Positions 5,839 to 12,295 of a DNA stretch of 27,574 nt are shown piece after piece. A program made the translations under genes and the position numbers. How positions within the stretch are numbered: the first letter of the stretch is position 1; every line of letters starts with the position of its first letter. The stretch is from a virus. Where the stretch lies: IMG/VR virus record IMGVR_UViG_3300013099_000070, positions 1-27,574 of that record. One strand, given 5' to 3'. The notes below the pieces were generated by a model. The model had not been told where the DNA came from. It did not search any database and was given only the letters and a program-made list of their open reading frames with translations.

Positions 5839-6594
5839 TTAGTACCCTGCGTCTACATCTCGTCTAAAGACAAGTTCGTTTTCAGTAAAAGTCATTTTTA
5901 ATAAAGTTTGAGCAGGGAATCCGTCAGACATCGCATTATAAAAACCTGCCCCCGTATAGTTAACGTTTAAATCTGTTATTACACAACGTTTAAATTTATT
6001 TAGCCATTTGTTACTTGCTCCCCCTGCTGAAATATATTCAATACCAACTTCTCTAGGATAGGTCATTAAACTACCTGATTGTTCAGGCAAAGCCGCTTTA
6101 CGAAATTCTTTTATAATTTCATGAATTATATTAGACTCATCAGCGTTTTTAGGCAAAAAGTTAAACATCATTGTAAATGAGCGAAAGTCCAGACCCTTGA
6201 ACAATAATTTAATATAAGGGTTGTTAATTTTTCCAGAGGTGTATTCTGTTACGTCTGATCCACTAACGGATGAACTTAGACCTGCTGAGGTTAAACTTGA
6301 TATTCCAGATTGTGCCGCACGTTTACTACGTTCAAACATATTTCCCATACTGGGAACTGACCCCACTTCATTACTTGACCCCATTAAGTCGAATGGTTTA
6401 CTTTGCCAATCAACTTTCATTGGATTTTCAAATTGTAATGGCATATGTAAAAAGATGCCTCCAATTCTGCTATTTGAAGTTGAGTTGCCTCTTTCGTAAA
6501 TAGTAAATTTAACAGCACTGGCTTGAACGCCTGCTCCTGCCGCATTGCTTAAATACGTTTCAGTGTTAAGTGGATATTCTAATGCCATTGCCAT
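5839..6594 (-). CDS. 48: Baseplate tail-tube cap/initiator (gp48/gp54 family)
   Basis: About 251 residues. The core NPYIKLLFKGLDFRSFTMMFNF with FLPKNADES and a helix (NIIHEIIKEFRKAALPE) is the hallmark of gp48/gp54, the proteins that cap the hub and start tube polymerisation. The C-terminal part (CVITDLNVNYTG ... PAQTLLKMTFTENELV) continues the tube-like beta-barrel. T4 has two such proteins of 320-364 aa; this one is shorter, and I cannot tell gp48 from gp54. The first in-frame ATG (6603) has AAGAG directly against it, too close to serve as a ribosome site. The ATG at 6594 lies 9 nt after AAGAG, so I place the start there. It is driven by a TATAAATA late promoter at 6631-6638. Confidence 0.8.
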   Translation of the reverse strand: MAMALEYPLNTETYLSNAAGAGVQASAVKFTIYERGNSTSNSRIGGIFLHMPLQFENPMKVDWQSKPFDLMGSSNEVGSVPSMGNMFERSKRAAQSGISSLTSAGLSSSVSGSDVTEYTSGKINNPYIKLLFKGLDFRSFTMMFNFLPKNADESNIIHEIIKEFRKAALPEQSGSLMTYPREVGIEYISAGGASNKWLNKFKRCVITDLNVNYTGAGFYNAMSDGFPAQTLLKMTFTENELVFRRDVDAGY

Positions 6595-6607
6595 TGCTTT
6601 CATCTCT

Positions 6608-6615
6608 TATAAATA
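6608..6615 (+). promoter_or_regulatory. T4-type late promoter (TATAAATA), plus strand
   Basis: Exact match to the T4 late promoter box TATAAATA, 33 nt upstream of the gp4 ATG at 6648 in the divergent gap between two structural operons. T4 late promoters consist of this -10 box alone and are read by a gp55-type sigma with the gp33 co-activator. A gp33 candidate is encoded at 17127-17351. Confidence 0.7.
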
Positions 6616-6630
6616 TTGTTATATTACTTA

Positions 6631-6638
6631 TATTTATA
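6631..6638 (-). promoter_or_regulatory. T4-type late promoter (TATAAATA), minus strand
   Basis: Exact TATAAATA on the minus strand (TATTTATA as written on the plus strand), 37 nt upstream of the preferred gp48/54 start at 6594. It faces away from the plus-strand late box 15 nt to the left. The two transcripts would therefore overlap and be complementary over a short stretch at their 5' ends. Confidence 0.7.
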
Positions 6639-6647
6639 TGGATTGAG

Positions 6648-7112
6648 ATGGGAAACTTTAAGCAAGGCATATTTAAACCAAAAAATAAAAAAAAATACAT
6701 CGGTAACGCTGATAATATCGTTTTTCGTAGTGGGTGGGAATTACGGGTTATGAACTGGCTCGACCAAAACACTAACGTTATTGAGTGGTGTTCAGAAGAG
6801 TTAATGATTCCATATTTTTTTCAAGGTGACGGCAAAACGCATCGTTACTACCCTGACTTTTTAATTAAGTTGAAAAGTAAAAATGGGGTCAATCGCAAAA
6901 TAATAATTGAGGTTAAGCCTGCAAAAGAAACGGTATTGCCAAAAAAACCTAAACGAATGACAAAGAAATCAAAAGTAAGGTATCTTAATGAGTGTATGAC
7001 ATATCAAAAGAATTCAGACAAGTGGGAATCAGCAACGGCTTATGCAAAGAAAAATGGAATGGAATTTAAAATTATGACTGAATATGATATATATGGACAA
7101 AAGGGTAAATAA
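6648..7112 (+). CDS. 4: gp4-like head completion protein
   Basis: 154 residues (T4 gp4 is 150). The pattern GNADNIVFRSGWELRVMNWLD, then VIEWCSEELMIPYFFQGDGKTHRYYPDF and KIIIEVKPAKE, is the conserved gp4 core. It resembles a PD-(D/E)XK nuclease fold: YYPDF supplies the Asp and IIEVKP the ExK. In T4 gp4 is needed to finish DNA-filled heads so that tails can join. An in-frame start at 6570 would lie inside the divergent gene; the ATG at 6648 follows GGATTGAG and fits the family N-terminus (MGNFKQGIFKPKN). It overlaps the ATG of the gp2 gene by one base. The T4 order 2-4-53 is rearranged here because gp53 is on the other strand. Confidence 0.87.
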   Translation: MGNFKQGIFKPKNKKKYIGNADNIVFRSGWELRVMNWLDQNTNVIEWCSEELMIPYFFQGDGKTHRYYPDFLIKLKSKNGVNRKIIIEVKPAKETVLPKKPKRMTKKSKVRYLNECMTYQKNSDKWESATAYAKKNGMEFKIMTEYDIYGQKGK

Positions 7113-7813
7113 TGGGCATTTTTAGTGCATTTAAAAGAAAAACAAAGTCATTAGTCGATAAGGTCAAAGACTTGACCTCATCACAGGTAAAGCGTGAGAC
7201 TGATAAATCTGTTGACTGGTTTAAGAGACAAATAAAAACGGCTATGAAAAGTCGCAATAAACCAAAGTCGCCTGCGGAAGAACGCAGAGATGAAAAAAGT
7301 CGTCTGGATAGTAAAATTGACAGTCGAATGTCAATGGCAGGCAATGACATTAAAGCTAAGTCTTATATGACAGCGTTTGCCAACACTGGTTATTTATACT
7401 TCTTTATGTATGACGCAAAATGGAAAAATACGCCACAATTACCTTACTATGACTATTTTCCTTGTACAATTCCTATTGAACAATATAAAGATGGTTTTTT
7501 AGGTTTGAATATGCACTACCTGCCCCCTATTTTGAGAGCACAATTGTTTGATCAATTATTGCAATTGAAACGTGACACTATTGACAGAGGTAGGTGGGAT
7601 AAATATTTAAGTATCTCATATCCTATGGTTAAGAGTATGGGTAATTTATATAAACCTTGTATTAAACGTTATCTGAATACTCAATTTAGATCAAAGTTTG
7701 CTAAGGTTCCGTTTGAAGAGTGGGAAAATGCCGTCTTCTTACCATTACAAGATTTCCGTGGTGCAAGCTATAATAAAGTTTGGTCTGACAGTAGAAAAAA
7801 AGTTAAGGGATAA
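7112..7813 (+). CDS. 2: gp2-like DNA end protector protein
   Basis: 233 residues. The basic N-terminus (DWFKRQIKTAMKSRN) is followed by GYLYFFMYDAKWKNTPQLPYYD, a GFLGLNMHYLPPILRAQLFD block and a C-terminal KPCIKRYLNTQFRSK ... VFLPLQDFRGA region. This is the pattern I associate with T4 gp2 (gp64), which protects packaged DNA ends from host RecBCD and helps finish the head. Adjacency to gp4 matches T4, where genes 2 and 4 are neighbours. The ORF is somewhat shorter than T4 gp2 (274). The identification is from memory of the family pattern, not a search. The alternative is an unassigned structural protein conserved in T4-like phages. Confidence 0.72.
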   Translation: MGIFSAFKRKTKSLVDKVKDLTSSQVKRETDKSVDWFKRQIKTAMKSRNKPKSPAEERRDEKSRLDSKIDSRMSMAGNDIKAKSYMTAFANTGYLYFFMYDAKWKNTPQLPYYDYFPCTIPIEQYKDGFLGLNMHYLPPILRAQLFDQLLQLKRDTIDRGRWDKYLSISYPMVKSMGNLYKPCIKRYLNTQFRSKFAKVPFEEWENAVFLPLQDFRGASYNKVWSDSRKKVKG

Positions 7814-7816
7814 AAA

Positions 7817-8329
7817 ATGTCAAGCAACATATCAGATTTCGTTTCACATGTTAGTGAAAATGGTACTGCCAGATCCAACCGTTACTGGGTAGAGTTTAAT
7901 GGCCCTGTGGGTTCGTTAGGCAATATGGCAATGTATTGTAAAACAGCACAAATGCCGGGTCGTGCATTTCAGACAGTAGAACAAAGACAACTTAACGCTC
8001 CATTTAAGATTCCATATGTTGCATCTTATGATGACGTTAGTTTTACCTTTAATTTGTCTGACGACTTAAAAGAACGTATATTTTTTGAGAAGTGGCAAGC
8101 GTCAATGTATGACGAAGACACAGCTTTAATGAATTATTATGATACATATAAAGGTACAACAATTATTCAACAATTAGATAGACAAGATACAAAAACTTAT
8201 AGCATTTTATTGAGAGAATGTTATCCAGTGGCATTGTCGAGTGTAGATTATGCTTATGATAACACAGATAACATTCAACAAATGACGGTAACAATGGCGT
8301 ACCGATATTGGACTAACCAAGGAATTTAA
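7817..8329 (+). CDS. 19: Tail tube (gp19-family) protein
   Basis: 170 residues (T4 gp19 is 163). The layout is that of the tube family: SNRYWVEFNGPVG, then a CKTAQMPGRAF loop, a PYVASYDDVSFTF strand pair, EKWQ, and a final TVTMAYRYW strand. Such subunits form hexameric rings in contractile tails. In T4 the major tube gene lies next to sheath gp18, but this one sits among baseplate-assembly genes next to gp26 and the tape measure. It may therefore be a tube paralogue used at the baseplate end rather than the major tube protein. Its start is 4 nt after the gp2 stop, and AAGGGATAAAA provides a ribosome site. Confidence 0.75.
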   Translation: MSSNISDFVSHVSENGTARSNRYWVEFNGPVGSLGNMAMYCKTAQMPGRAFQTVEQRQLNAPFKIPYVASYDDVSFTFNLSDDLKERIFFEKWQASMYDEDTALMNYYDTYKGTTIIQQLDRQDTKTYSILLRECYPVALSSVDYAYDNTDNIQQMTVTMAYRYWTNQGI

Positions 8330-8332
8330 AAA

Positions 8333-9043
8333 ATGGCTTTACCATTAGTAGCAACACCCAAATTTGATTTGACTTTACCAATAAGCAAAAAACAAATTAA
8401 ATACAGACCTTACCTTGTCAAAGAGCAAAAGGTCATTTTACAAGCAGTTGAGATGGGTAGTCCAGATCAACTTACTAACGCAATGCGTGACGCAATCATA
8501 GCATGTACTTATAATGAAATTGAAATTGATAAACTACCCTTTGCAGACGTAGAATTTATTTTAATTAATATCCGTGCAAAGTCATCAGGTGAAATGGTTG
8601 AATTATTTTATCGTTGCAACTCGAAAGGGTGTGACGGTAGAATCCCAGTTCAAATTAATTTATCTGAAATTGAAGTGGTCGAACCCAAAAAGGAAAATTT
8701 AAAAATAGAATTCGGTGGTAGTATTGGTATTGTAATGCAGTACCCAACTTACAAAGATCATATTGAAGCAACAAAATTAGATAGTGGTGTAGATCAAGCT
8801 ATGTCCCTAATTTTTGCTTGCACGAAATCTGTTTTTGACGGTGAGCAAGTTTGGTCAAAAAGCGACTTCACAAAAGAAGACCTTGAAGAGTTTATTTTGA
8901 ATTTACAAGAAGACGACTTTAAAAAATTAAATGATTATGTGGACGACTTACCACAAATAACAAAAGAATTGCATTTAACATGTCCTAAGTGTGGCGTTAC
9001 AGACGATTTAAAACTTACAGGTATTGACTCTTTTTTAGACTAA
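8333..9043 (+). CDS. 26: gp26-like baseplate/tail assembly protein (0-frame product)
   Basis: 236 residues. It matches the T4_baseplate (gp26) family as I know it: RPYLVKEQKVILQAVEMG, a helical segment with LPFADVEFILINIRAKSSGE, and two Cys pairs (YRCNSKGC near 103-109 and LTCPKCG near 221-226) that likely bind one zinc. In T4 gp26 is a hub assembly component. The gene stands just before the tape measure, the position of tail-assembly chaperones in other tailed phages. The last codons read TCT TTT TTA GAC TAA and include the slippery heptamer T_TTT_TTA (9031-9037). A -1 slip there bypasses the stop and enters the 51-aa frame downstream (see that entry). Confidence 0.8.
   Translation: MALPLVATPKFDLTLPISKKQIKYRPYLVKEQKVILQAVEMGSPDQLTNAMRDAIIACTYNEIEIDKLPFADVEFILINIRAKSSGEMVELFYRCNSKGCDGRIPVQINLSEIEVVEPKKENLKIEFGGSIGIVMQYPTYKDHIEATKLDSGVDQAMSLIFACTKSVFDGEQVWSKSDFTKEDLEEFILNLQEDDFKKLNDYVDDLPQITKELHLTCPKCGVTDDLKLTGIDSFLD
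9031..9037 (+). promoter_or_regulatory. Candidate -1 frameshift heptamer T_TTT_TTA
   Basis: In the gp26 frame the codons are TCT-TTT-TTA-GAC-stop, so the heptamer is correctly phased (X XXY YYZ). After a -1 slip the frame reads AGA CTA ATT TTT GGT and runs into ATG 9052 without a stop until 9205-9207. A perfect 9-bp stem, 9058-9066 with 9097-9105 (GAACTTATG/CATAAGTTC), lies 20 nt downstream. That is farther than usual stimulators. Confidence 0.6.
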
Positions 9044-9051
9044 TTTTTGGT

Positions 9052-9207
9052 ATGGGTGAACTTATGGCTTATTATAGAAGTACATTTTTATTAAGGCATA
9101 AGTTCGAGTATAAGATAGGGGAACTTGATGACATGCTCCCATTTGAACGTGATATTTATATGTTAATGCTACAAGATCAATTAAAAAAAGATAGCGAGAG
9201 AAAATAA
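9052..9207 (+). CDS. Small ORF between gp26 and tape measure; probable C-terminal extension of gp26 by frameshift
   Basis: 51 residues if started at ATG 9052: MGELMAYYRSTFLLRHKFEY, then an acidic and hydrophobic helix (IGELDDMLPFERDIYMLML) and a charged tail. No good Shine-Dalgarno precedes either ATG (9052 or 9064), which argues against independent initiation. The -1 frame from the T_TTT_TTA site at 9031-9037 enters it directly and would give a gp26 fusion of about 291 residues. The MLPFERDIY motif recurs in similar small ORFs next to tape measure genes, by analogy to the E/E' or G/GT chaperone pairs of P2 and lambda. The stop is one base before the tape measure ATG. Confidence 0.65.
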   Translation: MGELMAYYRSTFLLRHKFEYKIGELDDMLPFERDIYMLMLQDQLKKDSERK

Positions 9208-9208
9208 C

Positions 9209-12200
9209 ATGGCATTATCAGAACAACAAACAGCAAGACAAGCGGCTATTATAACTGCCGTTAGGAGTCAAGACGGTGGCAGTGAAAGTCAAGGCGTATT
9301 TTCTAACACCAATAGCCGATATAATCGAGGAAATTCAGAACTTGATGTTAGTGTTGCCTTACATAATTTTGAGCAAGATATAGCAGACAAAATTTCAGCA
9401 CAGTTACATAAAGATAATTTAGATCGTGCAAAAGGAAATGAGGTAGGCGAAAGTTTTAATGCCTTTGAAGATGAAGAGACTACAAAATTCTTTAAAAATT
9501 CTTTAGAGAGAATGGTGGGTGACGTTCAAGGAATGAGTGCGAAAGCATTAAATATTCAAATAGAACGTATGCAACACATTATGTCTTCTATTGATGAAAC
9601 TTCCTCATCAGAAGCAGAATTTTTACAAGAGCAATATGCAAAGTCTATTGTATTCATGCAAGATGAATTCAAACGTAAAAATAATATAGCCTTAAAGTCC
9701 ATGAATTTTATGGCAGAAACCGCAGAACAATATCTCAATCTTGAAAGTTTATATTCTGGGTTTGTAAACCACAATCCAATTGCAATGGGGTTATTCAAAC
9801 TTGGTGCAAATGCAGTAAGGTCTTTCCGCACAAATAAGAAAGCTAAAGAAGACTTGATGGCTCAGGATCAAGCCCGTGCGTCAGAAGCATTTCGTATTGA
9901 ACGTGATAGGGAAATTACAGAAGCACAAGAAGCACATAGAGCACAGGAAATTCAAGACCTTGAAGAAGCTAACGCTACAGGTAACAGTGGTGGTGAAGGA
10001 CTGTCTGCCCGTGAACAAGCTATTCAAGATGAAGAAAATGAAGGTGGTGACGGGTCTTGCGATTGTTTTGAACAAGTAATTAAAGACGCTCAAGGTGATT
10101 ATTTTACAAGAGAAGCCCCTGAAAGAGACTCAATCGGAACGTTACTTGATAACGAGGACGAAGAAGAAGATAGAGCAACTGATAATTTCAGAAAGGAAAC
10201 AAAAGCTAGAGAAATTAAATTATTCAAAAAAGTTTCTGAAATTAAAGATTTGTTAGTTGATGGCGGTATAGGTGGGAAAGAAGAAGAAGAAGAAAGTCAA
10301 AGTCTATTAGGCAGACTAGCAAAAATGTTTGCGTTTGGTAGAATATTAAAAGTATTAGCCTCTTTTAAAGGATCATTAGGTGCATTGGTTAAAGCCATTG
10401 GTGGTTTGCTTGCAGGATTTGGTCTGGGTGACGCTATAGGCGATTTTGGTGAAGACATTGACGTTGATAAGGACGATAAGAAAAAGTCCAAGAAAGACGC
10501 TAAGAAGAAGTCTAAAGCCAAATCAAAAAGAAAGGGTAAGGTCGGACGTGGTACTGGATTTGCAAATTCATATAAAGACAAAAGTCCACTCGAAAAAGCT
10601 AAAGAAAAGTTCAAAAAGTTCAAAAAACCCTCAATGGGTGGCGTGGGTAGGGCTGTTAGTGGTGCAGGAAGCCGTATAGGAGGCGTTCTAAGCGGGGCAG
10701 GACGCATGTTAGGGGGTAGCCTTTTAGGTGGAGCAGGAGCCACTACAGCCACAGCAGGAGCTACCGCAGGAGCAGGAGCAGGGATGGGAGCAATGGCTTT
10801 GCCTGCATTGGCACTTGCAGGAGCAGGAGCCACAGGTTATGGTATTGGCTCATTAATTTATGATAATGTGTTAGGTGATGACAGTAAAGACCTGATTGGT
10901 GAAGGTATAACCAGAACGTTAGCATTTTTTGGAAATGACGAAGCTCAATCCACATTAGACTCAAATGAAAAGTTTGAGCAAATGAAAAAAGCTGAGAAGT
11001 TGAAAAAAGATCGCTCTAATTTTGATACAGATAAGGTATTAGGAAAGCATGGTAAAAAACCAAGACCAAAAAGTAAAAACGCTAAACCACCTAAAGAAAT
11101 TGTCGATACATTTGCAATGCAAGAAAAAGCAAATAAAGAATTAGGAAAGCAATTTGAAAACAATGAAGGCTTTATGGATTTGACAGGTGAAGGCACAGCC
11201 AAAACGTTAGCATTTTTTGGAAATGACGAAGCTCAGGCATCCATTGACTCAAATGAAAAAAGTGAGAAAATAAAGAAAGAAGAAAAACTTACAGAAGCAC
11301 GTTCACATTTTGACATGGACGCTATTTTAAAAAGAAGTGCTGAACAATCAAAACCAAAACCAGTTGCTAATGTTTTAGACGCTAATGAAAATGCAGAAAC
11401 ATTAAATGGTCTATCAAAGAAAACTGTTAATGGTATTGTGTCTCGCAAATTAAACGGTGAACAATTTGACGAAGAAAAATTCAAAAAGTTAGGATTGAAG
11501 AAAACTGTTACAGACAGTATGGCTGATGGTGACATACCTATTCATGACGTTAGTGACGAACAGGGTTTACCTGCATGGTTTACTAATACAGCAGAAGAAG
11601 ATAAAAAATTAGAACGTATCTCACAAACAGGTCTTGAAACAGAAGTTTTCCGTGGTGTAGACACTGGTGAATTTCATAACAAGCTCGCAGAAAAAGATTC
11701 AATGGGTGCGTTTTCAGATCCAGACGAGATAAACAATACACGCCAACAAGACGCTAATAAAAAATATCTTGAATTGCAAGATATGGGTGCTCCACAAAAA
11801 CTCATTGAAAAAGAGTTAGGTGATTTCTACTTATCTGCAAAAAGTGCCAACACAAAACAAGCTATTAATCCACTGGAATTAAATAAGGGTATCAATGAAG
11901 AAAGCGGAACATTTGAAAAAATAAGTGACGCTCCAAATCGTGATCAGTTGCTTAACAAAGAACCTAATGAACAATTTGAAAAGGCAGACTCAGGTACACC
12001 AAAAATTAAAGACGTGAATTTTGGTATTGCAATGGAAAATTCTAAAATTGATAATTTGGAAATGCCAGAGTCAGCGTTAGGTGGTTTGATGGGTAGTGTG
12101 TCTGGAATGAAAGATGGGATGGATGCAGGAGGTGGTGGTGAAGCTATGCCACAACCTGTTTCATCTGGAACGCAAGCAAAAGTTCAACCAATTTTAGGAT

Positions 12201-12295
12201 CGGGTGGTGGTAAAAGTTCGGTTGTTAGTGCAAGAAACCCTGATAGCTCTATCCAAAGATTGACAGATCGCTTTCAGGGATTTGGTATGGCTTAA
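9209..12295 (+). CDS. Probable tail tape measure/central tail protein (gp29 position)
   Basis: 1028 residues. Residues 1-400 are helical and highly charged (long runs of E, K, Q). A hydrophobic region follows at about 370-410 (LAKMFAFGRILKVLASFKGSLGA). Then come a Lys-rich stretch (DKDDKKKSKKDAKKKSKAKS), a second Gly/Ala-rich hydrophobic block (about 485-545) and a low-complexity charged C-terminal half ending in GGSGG-type linkers and QRLTDRFQGFGMA. Long helical proteins with hydrophobic segments directly after the assembly chaperones are typical of tape measures; T4 gp29 is 590 aa. It carries an internal duplication (LAFFGNDEAQ units near residues 570 and 666). It could instead be another structural protein of this position. 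The stop overlaps the convergent gene at 12292. Confidence 0.6.
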   Translation: MALSEQQTARQAAIITAVRSQDGGSESQGVFSNTNSRYNRGNSELDVSVALHNFEQDIADKISAQLHKDNLDRAKGNEVGESFNAFEDEETTKFFKNSLERMVGDVQGMSAKALNIQIERMQHIMSSIDETSSSEAEFLQEQYAKSIVFMQDEFKRKNNIALKSMNFMAETAEQYLNLESLYSGFVNHNPIAMGLFKLGANAVRSFRTNKKAKEDLMAQDQARASEAFRIERDREITEAQEAHRAQEIQDLEEANATGNSGGEGLSAREQAIQDEENEGGDGSCDCFEQVIKDAQGDYFTREAPERDSIGTLLDNEDEEEDRATDNFRKETKAREIKLFKKVSEIKDLLVDGGIGGKEEEEESQSLLGRLAKMFAFGRILKVLASFKGSLGALVKAIGGLLAGFGLGDAIGDFGEDIDVDKDDKKKSKKDAKKKSKAKSKRKGKVGRGTGFANSYKDKSPLEKAKEKFKKFKKPSMGGVGRAVSGAGSRIGGVLSGAGRMLGGSLLGGAGATTATAGATAGAGAGMGAMALPALALAGAGATGYGIGSLIYDNVLGDDSKDLIGEGITRTLAFFGNDEAQSTLDSNEKFEQMKKAEKLKKDRSNFDTDKVLGKHGKKPRPKSKNAKPPKEIVDTFAMQEKANKELGKQFENNEGFMDLTGEGTAKTLAFFGNDEAQASIDSNEKSEKIKKEEKLTEARSHFDMDAILKRSAEQSKPKPVANVLDANENAETLNGLSKKTVNGIVSRKLNGEQFDEEKFKKLGLKKTVTDSMADGDIPIHDVSDEQGLPAWFTNTAEEDKKLERISQTGLETEVFRGVDTGEFHNKLAEKDSMGAFSDPDEINNTRQQDANKKYLELQDMGAPQKLIEKELGDFYLSAKSANTKQAINPLELNKGINEESGTFEKISDAPNRDQLLNKEPNEQFEKADSGTPKIKDVNFGIAMENSKIDNLEMPESALGGLMGSVSGMKDGMDAGGGGEAMPQPVSSGTQAKVQPILGSGGGKSSVVSARNPDSSIQRLTDRFQGFGMA
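10915..10947 (+). repeat. 33-bp direct repeat, copy 1 (inside tape measure-like gene)
   Basis: Identical 33-bp sequence at 10915-10947 and 11203-11235, both in the same reading frame and 288 nt (96 codons) apart. It encodes TLAFFGNDEAQ. The similarity extends on both sides at the protein level (D-L-x-GEG before; SNEK and EKL after). Confidence 0.9.
11203..11235 (+). repeat. 33-bp direct repeat, copy 2
   Basis: Second copy of the repeat at 10915-10947. Flanking codons differ, while the protein unit of about 96 residues is partly conserved. The absence of any base change in the 33-bp core suggests recent duplication or gene conversion. Confidence 0.9.

Follow-up and report, generated by a model that had tools for sequence, protein, structure and literature searches.

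The gp26-family gene of an uncultivated T4-like phage is followed, just before a probable tape measure gene, by a small open reading frame (ORF) of 51 aa that lies in the region annotated as gp51 in relatives. The phage is known from the IMG/VR virus record IMGVR_UViG_3300013099_000070, of which the whole stretch analysed here, 27,574 bases, is called the window. The locus raises the question of whether this ORF is a gene of its own or the end of a longer protein that is reached from gp26 by a -1 ribosomal frameshift. From the sequence, the second answer is very probably the right one, that is, the window would encode a T4-like tail assembly chaperone (TAC) pair whose long form is made by -1 slippage at the gp26 3' end. 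The elements concerned are:

8333-9043, plus strand: TAC-N, T4 gp26-family gene of 236 aa, probable short tail assembly chaperone (PF12322, phrog_150, AlphaFold model)
9014-9024, plus strand: Shine-Dalgarno (SD)-like stretch upstream of the heptamer (ACAGG, weak in the window, about -3.9 kcal/mol)
9031-9037, plus strand: slippery heptamer T_TTT_TTA, in frame with gp26 and conserved as T_TTT_TT[C/T/A]
9037-9207, plus strand: TAC-C, the -1 frame extension of 56 codons and a stop, containing the ORF annotated as gp51 in relatives (phrog_634)
9041-9043, plus strand: zero-frame stop TAA, which the shift would bypass
9057-9106, plus strand: hairpin downstream of the slippery site with a 19-nt spacer, possible stimulator (-18.7 kcal/mol, z -4.05)
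9209-12295, plus strand: probable tape measure protein of 1028 aa (position, length, Gly/Ala-rich hydrophobic stretches)

The gp26 gene and its -1 frame extension

The gp26 ORF ends in GAC TCT TTT TTA GAC TAA, with the last codon of the heptamer one codon before the stop. The original prediction had placed an in-frame T_TTT_TTA near this stop and a -1 frame open into the 51-aa ORF, and both are present, the heptamer at 9031-9037 within the ORF 8333-9043 and 59 open codons of the -1 frame over 9028-9204, with the small ORF at 9052-9207. The gp26 ORF matches PF12322 (E 3e-54, 184 bits against a cut-off of 24.5) and phrog_150 (E 2e-57), and the 51-aa ORF matches phrog_634, "baseplate hub assembly catalyst" (gp51), at E 1e-14. 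By homology above thresholds the pair belongs to the T4 gp26/gp51 family, the gp26 and gp51 of T4 being of the same families (PF12322 with a phrog_634 tail). The window gp26 shares 25-37% identity with its relatives and retrieved only one close relative when used as query.

Most ribosomes would read gp26 to its stop and release TAC-N, and a minority would slip back one base with the P- and A-site tRNAs on TTT TTA (9032-9037), re-pair with TTT TTT and pass the TAA in the -1 frame. The slip would add 56 residues to give TAC-NC, a protein of 291 aa and about 33.5 kDa with the junction ...GIDSFL-RLIFG.... We infer both the slippage and its efficiency in this phage. By analogy with gpG/gpGT of lambda, TAC-N would form a coat on the tape measure protein and TAC-NC, as the minor form, would recruit tube subunits, and the ratio of TAC-N to TAC-NC would matter because of these coating and tube-recruiting roles.

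Conservation of the frame and the heptamer

As the reading frame and the heptamer can be followed in relatives, we surveyed loci from IMG/VR and phage isolates, 301 of which carry both gp26 and TAC-C. The queries were single -1 frame peptides, some of them spanning the junction, and a query of TAC-C only served as the unbiased check. TAC-C lies in the -1 frame of gp26 at 300 of the 301 loci, where one third would be expected if the two were independent, and at these loci as in the window its ORF is open across the TAC-N stop. The sole exception (L244) has a broken gp26 frame and the same T-run. At 203 of 207 distinct junctions an in-frame T_TTT_TT[C/T/A] is present, the rest of the gp26 genes having T_TTT_TTN at 8 of 15,384 codon positions read in frame (about 0.05%). 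The four junctions without it belong to two Ackermannviridae, to L086 (T changed to G) and to L148 (gp26 frame ends early). With the TAC-C query, which excludes the junction, the heptamer was found in 43 of 44 loci, the 44th being L244, which has CTTTTTTCG but the broken gp26 frame. All 11 isolate phages carry it. P-SSM4, HTVC008M, Melnitz-3 and Mosig have TTTTTT[C/T] near the gp26 end and a small gp51 ORF in the -1 frame, and Syn9, P-HM2, ME01, Stenotrophomonas YB07, Sinorhizobium phiN3, Aeromonas PX29 and Vibrio D491s likewise combine a T-run with a -1 frame gp51. The fusion had been predicted with the reservation that relatives might not keep the heptamer; they do, and the TAC-N/TAC-C overlap holds a conserved slippery heptamer.

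The metagenome loci with a broken gp26 frame (L244:753-1340 and L148) and the one with the T to G change in the heptamer (L086:1510-1531) are sequencing errors or real variants.

For the signal itself we used 67 clusters at 60% identity, all drawn from heptamer-bearing junctions, so that their statistics describe the signal and not its frequency. In every cluster the first Phe is written TTT (68% elsewhere) and the codon before it has T in third position; log10 P is -11 and -15 for these two synonymous constraints. The codons that directly follow the slip in the -1 frame spell a conserved peptide of the FFRIALSHDSLENYYKTNFALMQHHKYSLTELDDMIPWEREIY type, and their codon-position entropies are 1.15/0.80/1.60, the third positions being the most variable. 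The corresponding window peptide FFRLIFGMGELMAYYRSTFLL aligns with that of the relatives from the slip site onward, reaching 39% identity (E 4e-15) with that of locus L001.

Start codons of the downstream ORF

The ATG at 9052, 8 nt past the gp26 stop, is without a ribosome site (-2.4 kcal/mol), and the ATG at 9064 has GGGTGA 4 nt upstream, a ribosome-site-like stretch of -6.7 kcal/mol. The earlier statement that the 51-aa ORF lacks a ribosome site thus holds for the first of these codons and fails for the second. As ATG 9064 has a plausible ribosome site, free TAC-C could also be made in the window, and the frameshift to TAC-NC could be accompanied in this phage by internal initiation at this ATG to give a free TAC-C of 47 aa. 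We regard such a double output as unlikely, since the ribosome site of ATG 9064 is not conserved in relatives and its GGGTGA is also -1 frame coding sequence that overlaps the start of the hairpin.

It is far less probable still that the 51-aa ORF is a small gene in its own right, translated by re-initiation at ATG 9052 or 9064 after termination at 9043, with the heptamer incidental. The short distance from the stop to ATG 9052, the GGGTGA before ATG 9064, TAATG or TGATG overlaps in some relatives and the annotation of gp51 as a gene in databases all speak for it. However, -1 frame residues are conserved upstream of any start codon (FFRL.F...L..YY precedes ATG 9064), and in 52 of the 67 clusters the -1 frame runs for its first 15 codons without an ATG. 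Besides, the first ATGs of the relatives are without ribosome sites: a strength of -5 kcal/mol or better is reached at the first in-frame ATG of 7% of homologues, as compared to 79% of gp26 starts and 10% of random positions, and the mean energy is -0.7 kcal/mol against -5.8 kcal/mol at gp26 starts. Strong independent ribosome sites in the homologues, named beforehand as evidence that would tell against the fusion, are therefore no more frequent than at random. A free ORF would also need neither the -1 frame kept at all but one locus nor the T6 heptamer kept at nearly every junction. In these alignments protein conservation of the -1 frame sets in at the slip site, in most cases with neither a start codon nor a ribosome site, as in a frameshifted extension of gp26.

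Among annotated cyanophage gp51 genes, those at L014:2289-2381, L013:2271-2414 and L002:3217-3402 have been given a start at an ATG that lies inside the conserved -1 frame, by as much as 34 codons, and the P-HM2 gp51 of 31 codons is a clear truncated annotation.

Phages with gp51 as a separate gene

T2 and six other Straboviridae encode gp51 separately, as a protein of about 250 aa that ends in a TAC-C-like tail; the T2 protein consists of a PF12322 (gp26-like) domain and a phrog_634 tail, and the C-termini of the other six are similar. The T6 heptamer was found at the gp26 end in none of these seven phages, although Phe-Phe persists, as TTC TTT, in the gp26 genes of T2, GRNsp7 and LC53. Because the heptamer is absent from gp26 where the fused gp51 is a separate gene, despite the Phe-Phe, it tracks the need for frameshifting and not the protein sequence. 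That the heptamer is kept merely because the end of gp26 needs Phe-Phe (or Phe-Leu) is the least probable reading of all and close to negligible: although Gly-Leu-x-x-Phe-Phe is also kept in non-frameshifting T4-type gp26, these genes do not write Phe-Phe as TTT TTY, whereas in the marine group the codons are fixed at synonymous positions and the -1 frame encodes a conserved protein.

In the Ackermannviridae (L020:2229-2399, L022:2289-2462, L310:1700-1893 and L311:1700-1893), TAC-C lies in the gp26 -1 frame without a T6 heptamer. These loci share the motif GA[A/G]-ATT-TTC-AT[T/C]-TAA, followed by TAATG (Agtrevirus-type) or TAATT (Kuttervirus/Taipeivirus), and their TAC-C would come either from a non-canonical slip or from a coupled ATG/ATT start.

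Elements flanking the heptamer

Of the 67 clusters, 97% have AGG, GGG or GGA at 6-18 nt before the heptamer, against 7-21% at control positions, and no other part of the region matches the anti-SD better than this SD-like stretch (mean -6.1 kcal/mol). It is partly a by-product of a conserved Gly codon, which is also kept in T4-type genes. The codons used at the stretch are nevertheless in excess for GAG (22/35 vs 28%, P 2e-5) and GGG (14/64 vs 7%, P 1e-4), and because of this excess, the sole argument beyond the Gly codon, the data suggest that the stretch is partly under RNA-level selection, as in dnaX. In E. coli dnaX an SD-like stretch precedes the in-frame heptamer by about 10 nt and a hairpin follows it, a layout like that of the window, where the heptamer is U-rich and not A-rich. 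Any role of the stretch in promoting slippage here is putative.

The 9-bp stem predicted at 9058-9105 does exist, GAACTTATG (9058-9066) pairing with CATAAGTTC (9097-9105) to give 10 bp in the fold, and none of 200 shuffles was as stable. The hairpin begins 19 nt past the heptamer, the usual spacing between heptamer and stimulator being 5-9 nt, which makes it too distant for a classical stimulator; a stimulatory role is possible. Unlike that of dnaX, it has this 19-nt spacer and is not consistently conserved, the relatives having a weak trend towards downstream structure (mean z -1.39 vs -0.22 in controls). A downstream pseudoknot or hairpin did not emerge as a general component, with z < -2 in 22 of 67 clusters vs 13 of 132 controls.

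We put forward tentatively, and at somewhat less than an even chance, a three-part signal in marine T4-like phages, comprising an SD-like element 6-18 nt upstream with a bias in its favour at synonymous sites, the heptamer T_TTT_TTN and a downstream hairpin in part of the lineages, the window among them. The Ackermannviridae would then slip at a different site or use a coupled start, which in some of them is not an ATG.

Predicted fold of gp26

An AlphaFold2 model of gp26, for which 59 sequences of the window and of related loci were used, has a pLDDT of 94. Foldseek alone gave no significant match for it in the PDB. A second-look aligner, run on the chains ranked by Foldseek and the sole source of the TAC fold match, placed the HK97 tail assembly chaperone 2ob9 first (Z 7.5, 4.2 Å, 83 residues), a Z which, lying below 8, can reflect merely a common arrangement; 3fgx was second (Z 7.2) and the next match had Z 4.3. 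This resemblance gives moderate backing to a chaperone role of the modelled gp26, independent of the frameshift argument. The probable -1 frameshift giving a gp26 fusion, as originally predicted, is hence supported by the heptamer conservation, by the homologues' ATGs without ribosome sites and by the likeness to the HK97 chaperone. PMC3004832 counts gp26 and gp51 of T4 among the chaperones of hub assembly.

Relation to known systems

A conserved frameshift in tail genes was reportedly described by Xu, Hendrix and Duda in 2004. Like the window, lambda encodes a short and a -1 frameshift-extended protein (gpG/gpGT) before the tape measure gene; its heptamer is GGGAAAG and its extension is longer, whereas the window has a U-rich heptamer and an extension of 56 aa. 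In T4-like phages, frameshifting is said to have been reported by Vladimirov et al. in 2022 as conserved in several groups, the T4 group using two genes.

According to PMC10885494 and PMC12846349, which cite it, the TACs of T4-like phages were identified by Vladimirov, Gautam and Davidson 2022 (Virology 566:9-15). Citing the same study, PMC12846349 states that poly-T sequences are known to act as -1 signals in the TAC-N genes of T4-like phages, and PMC10885494 that in some of these phages the short and the fused TAC each have a gene of their own. The claim that the window newly unifies T4-type tails with the chaperone rule is thus out of date, as the link was published in 2022 (Virology 566:9-15; PMC10885494, PMC12846349). 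A frameshifted TAC in T4-like phages is correct but already described, and the window adds a divergent, uncultivated member with T_TTT_TTA in place of the common T_TTT_TTC. PMC12846349 also describes a conserved -1 frameshift in Pakpunavirus Adele and Vandenendeviridae, with a GTTTTT motif at the TAC-N 3' end and a downstream ORF annotated as a separate gene; these are other phage families than that of the window, and the likeness is one of frameshift layout.

The known chaperone rule would hereby reach a divergent marine virus, and in cyanophages and pelagiphages the annotation of "gp51" (30-60 aa) would be corrected from an independent truncated gene to an extension of gp26. The cyanophage gp51 has been described as about 20% of the usual length, with the first ~200 residues missing (Sullivan et al. 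2010, PMC3037559), and this shortness would be explained if gp51 is the gp26 extension. Apart from this, at least 67 lineages share an exactly placed signal and lend themselves well to tests of -1 stimulators at U-rich heptamers in bacteria.

Neighbouring genes

The 1028-aa ORF follows TAC-C after a gap of 1 nt. Family searches gave it no significant match, to tape measure families or to others, and it is probably the tape measure protein by its position, size and composition. In HTVC008M, a large ORF one small ORF further on in the same neighbourhood is clearly homologous to tape measure families. The other neighbours are:

5839-6603, minus strand: tube cap, a baseplate gene
6570-7112, plus strand: head closure, with a listed GTG start
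7112-7813, plus strand: DNA end protector
7817-8329, plus strand: tail tube
24168-24701, minus strand: 177-aa protein with an endonuclease VII/HNH family match and weak Srd anti-sigma and sigma70-decoy matches

Across 5839-12295 of the window, minus-strand baseplate genes, with the tube cap, are divergent from the plus-strand block. Provided that the GTG start listed for head closure is right, this gene and the tube cap gene share 6570-6603 at their 5' ends.
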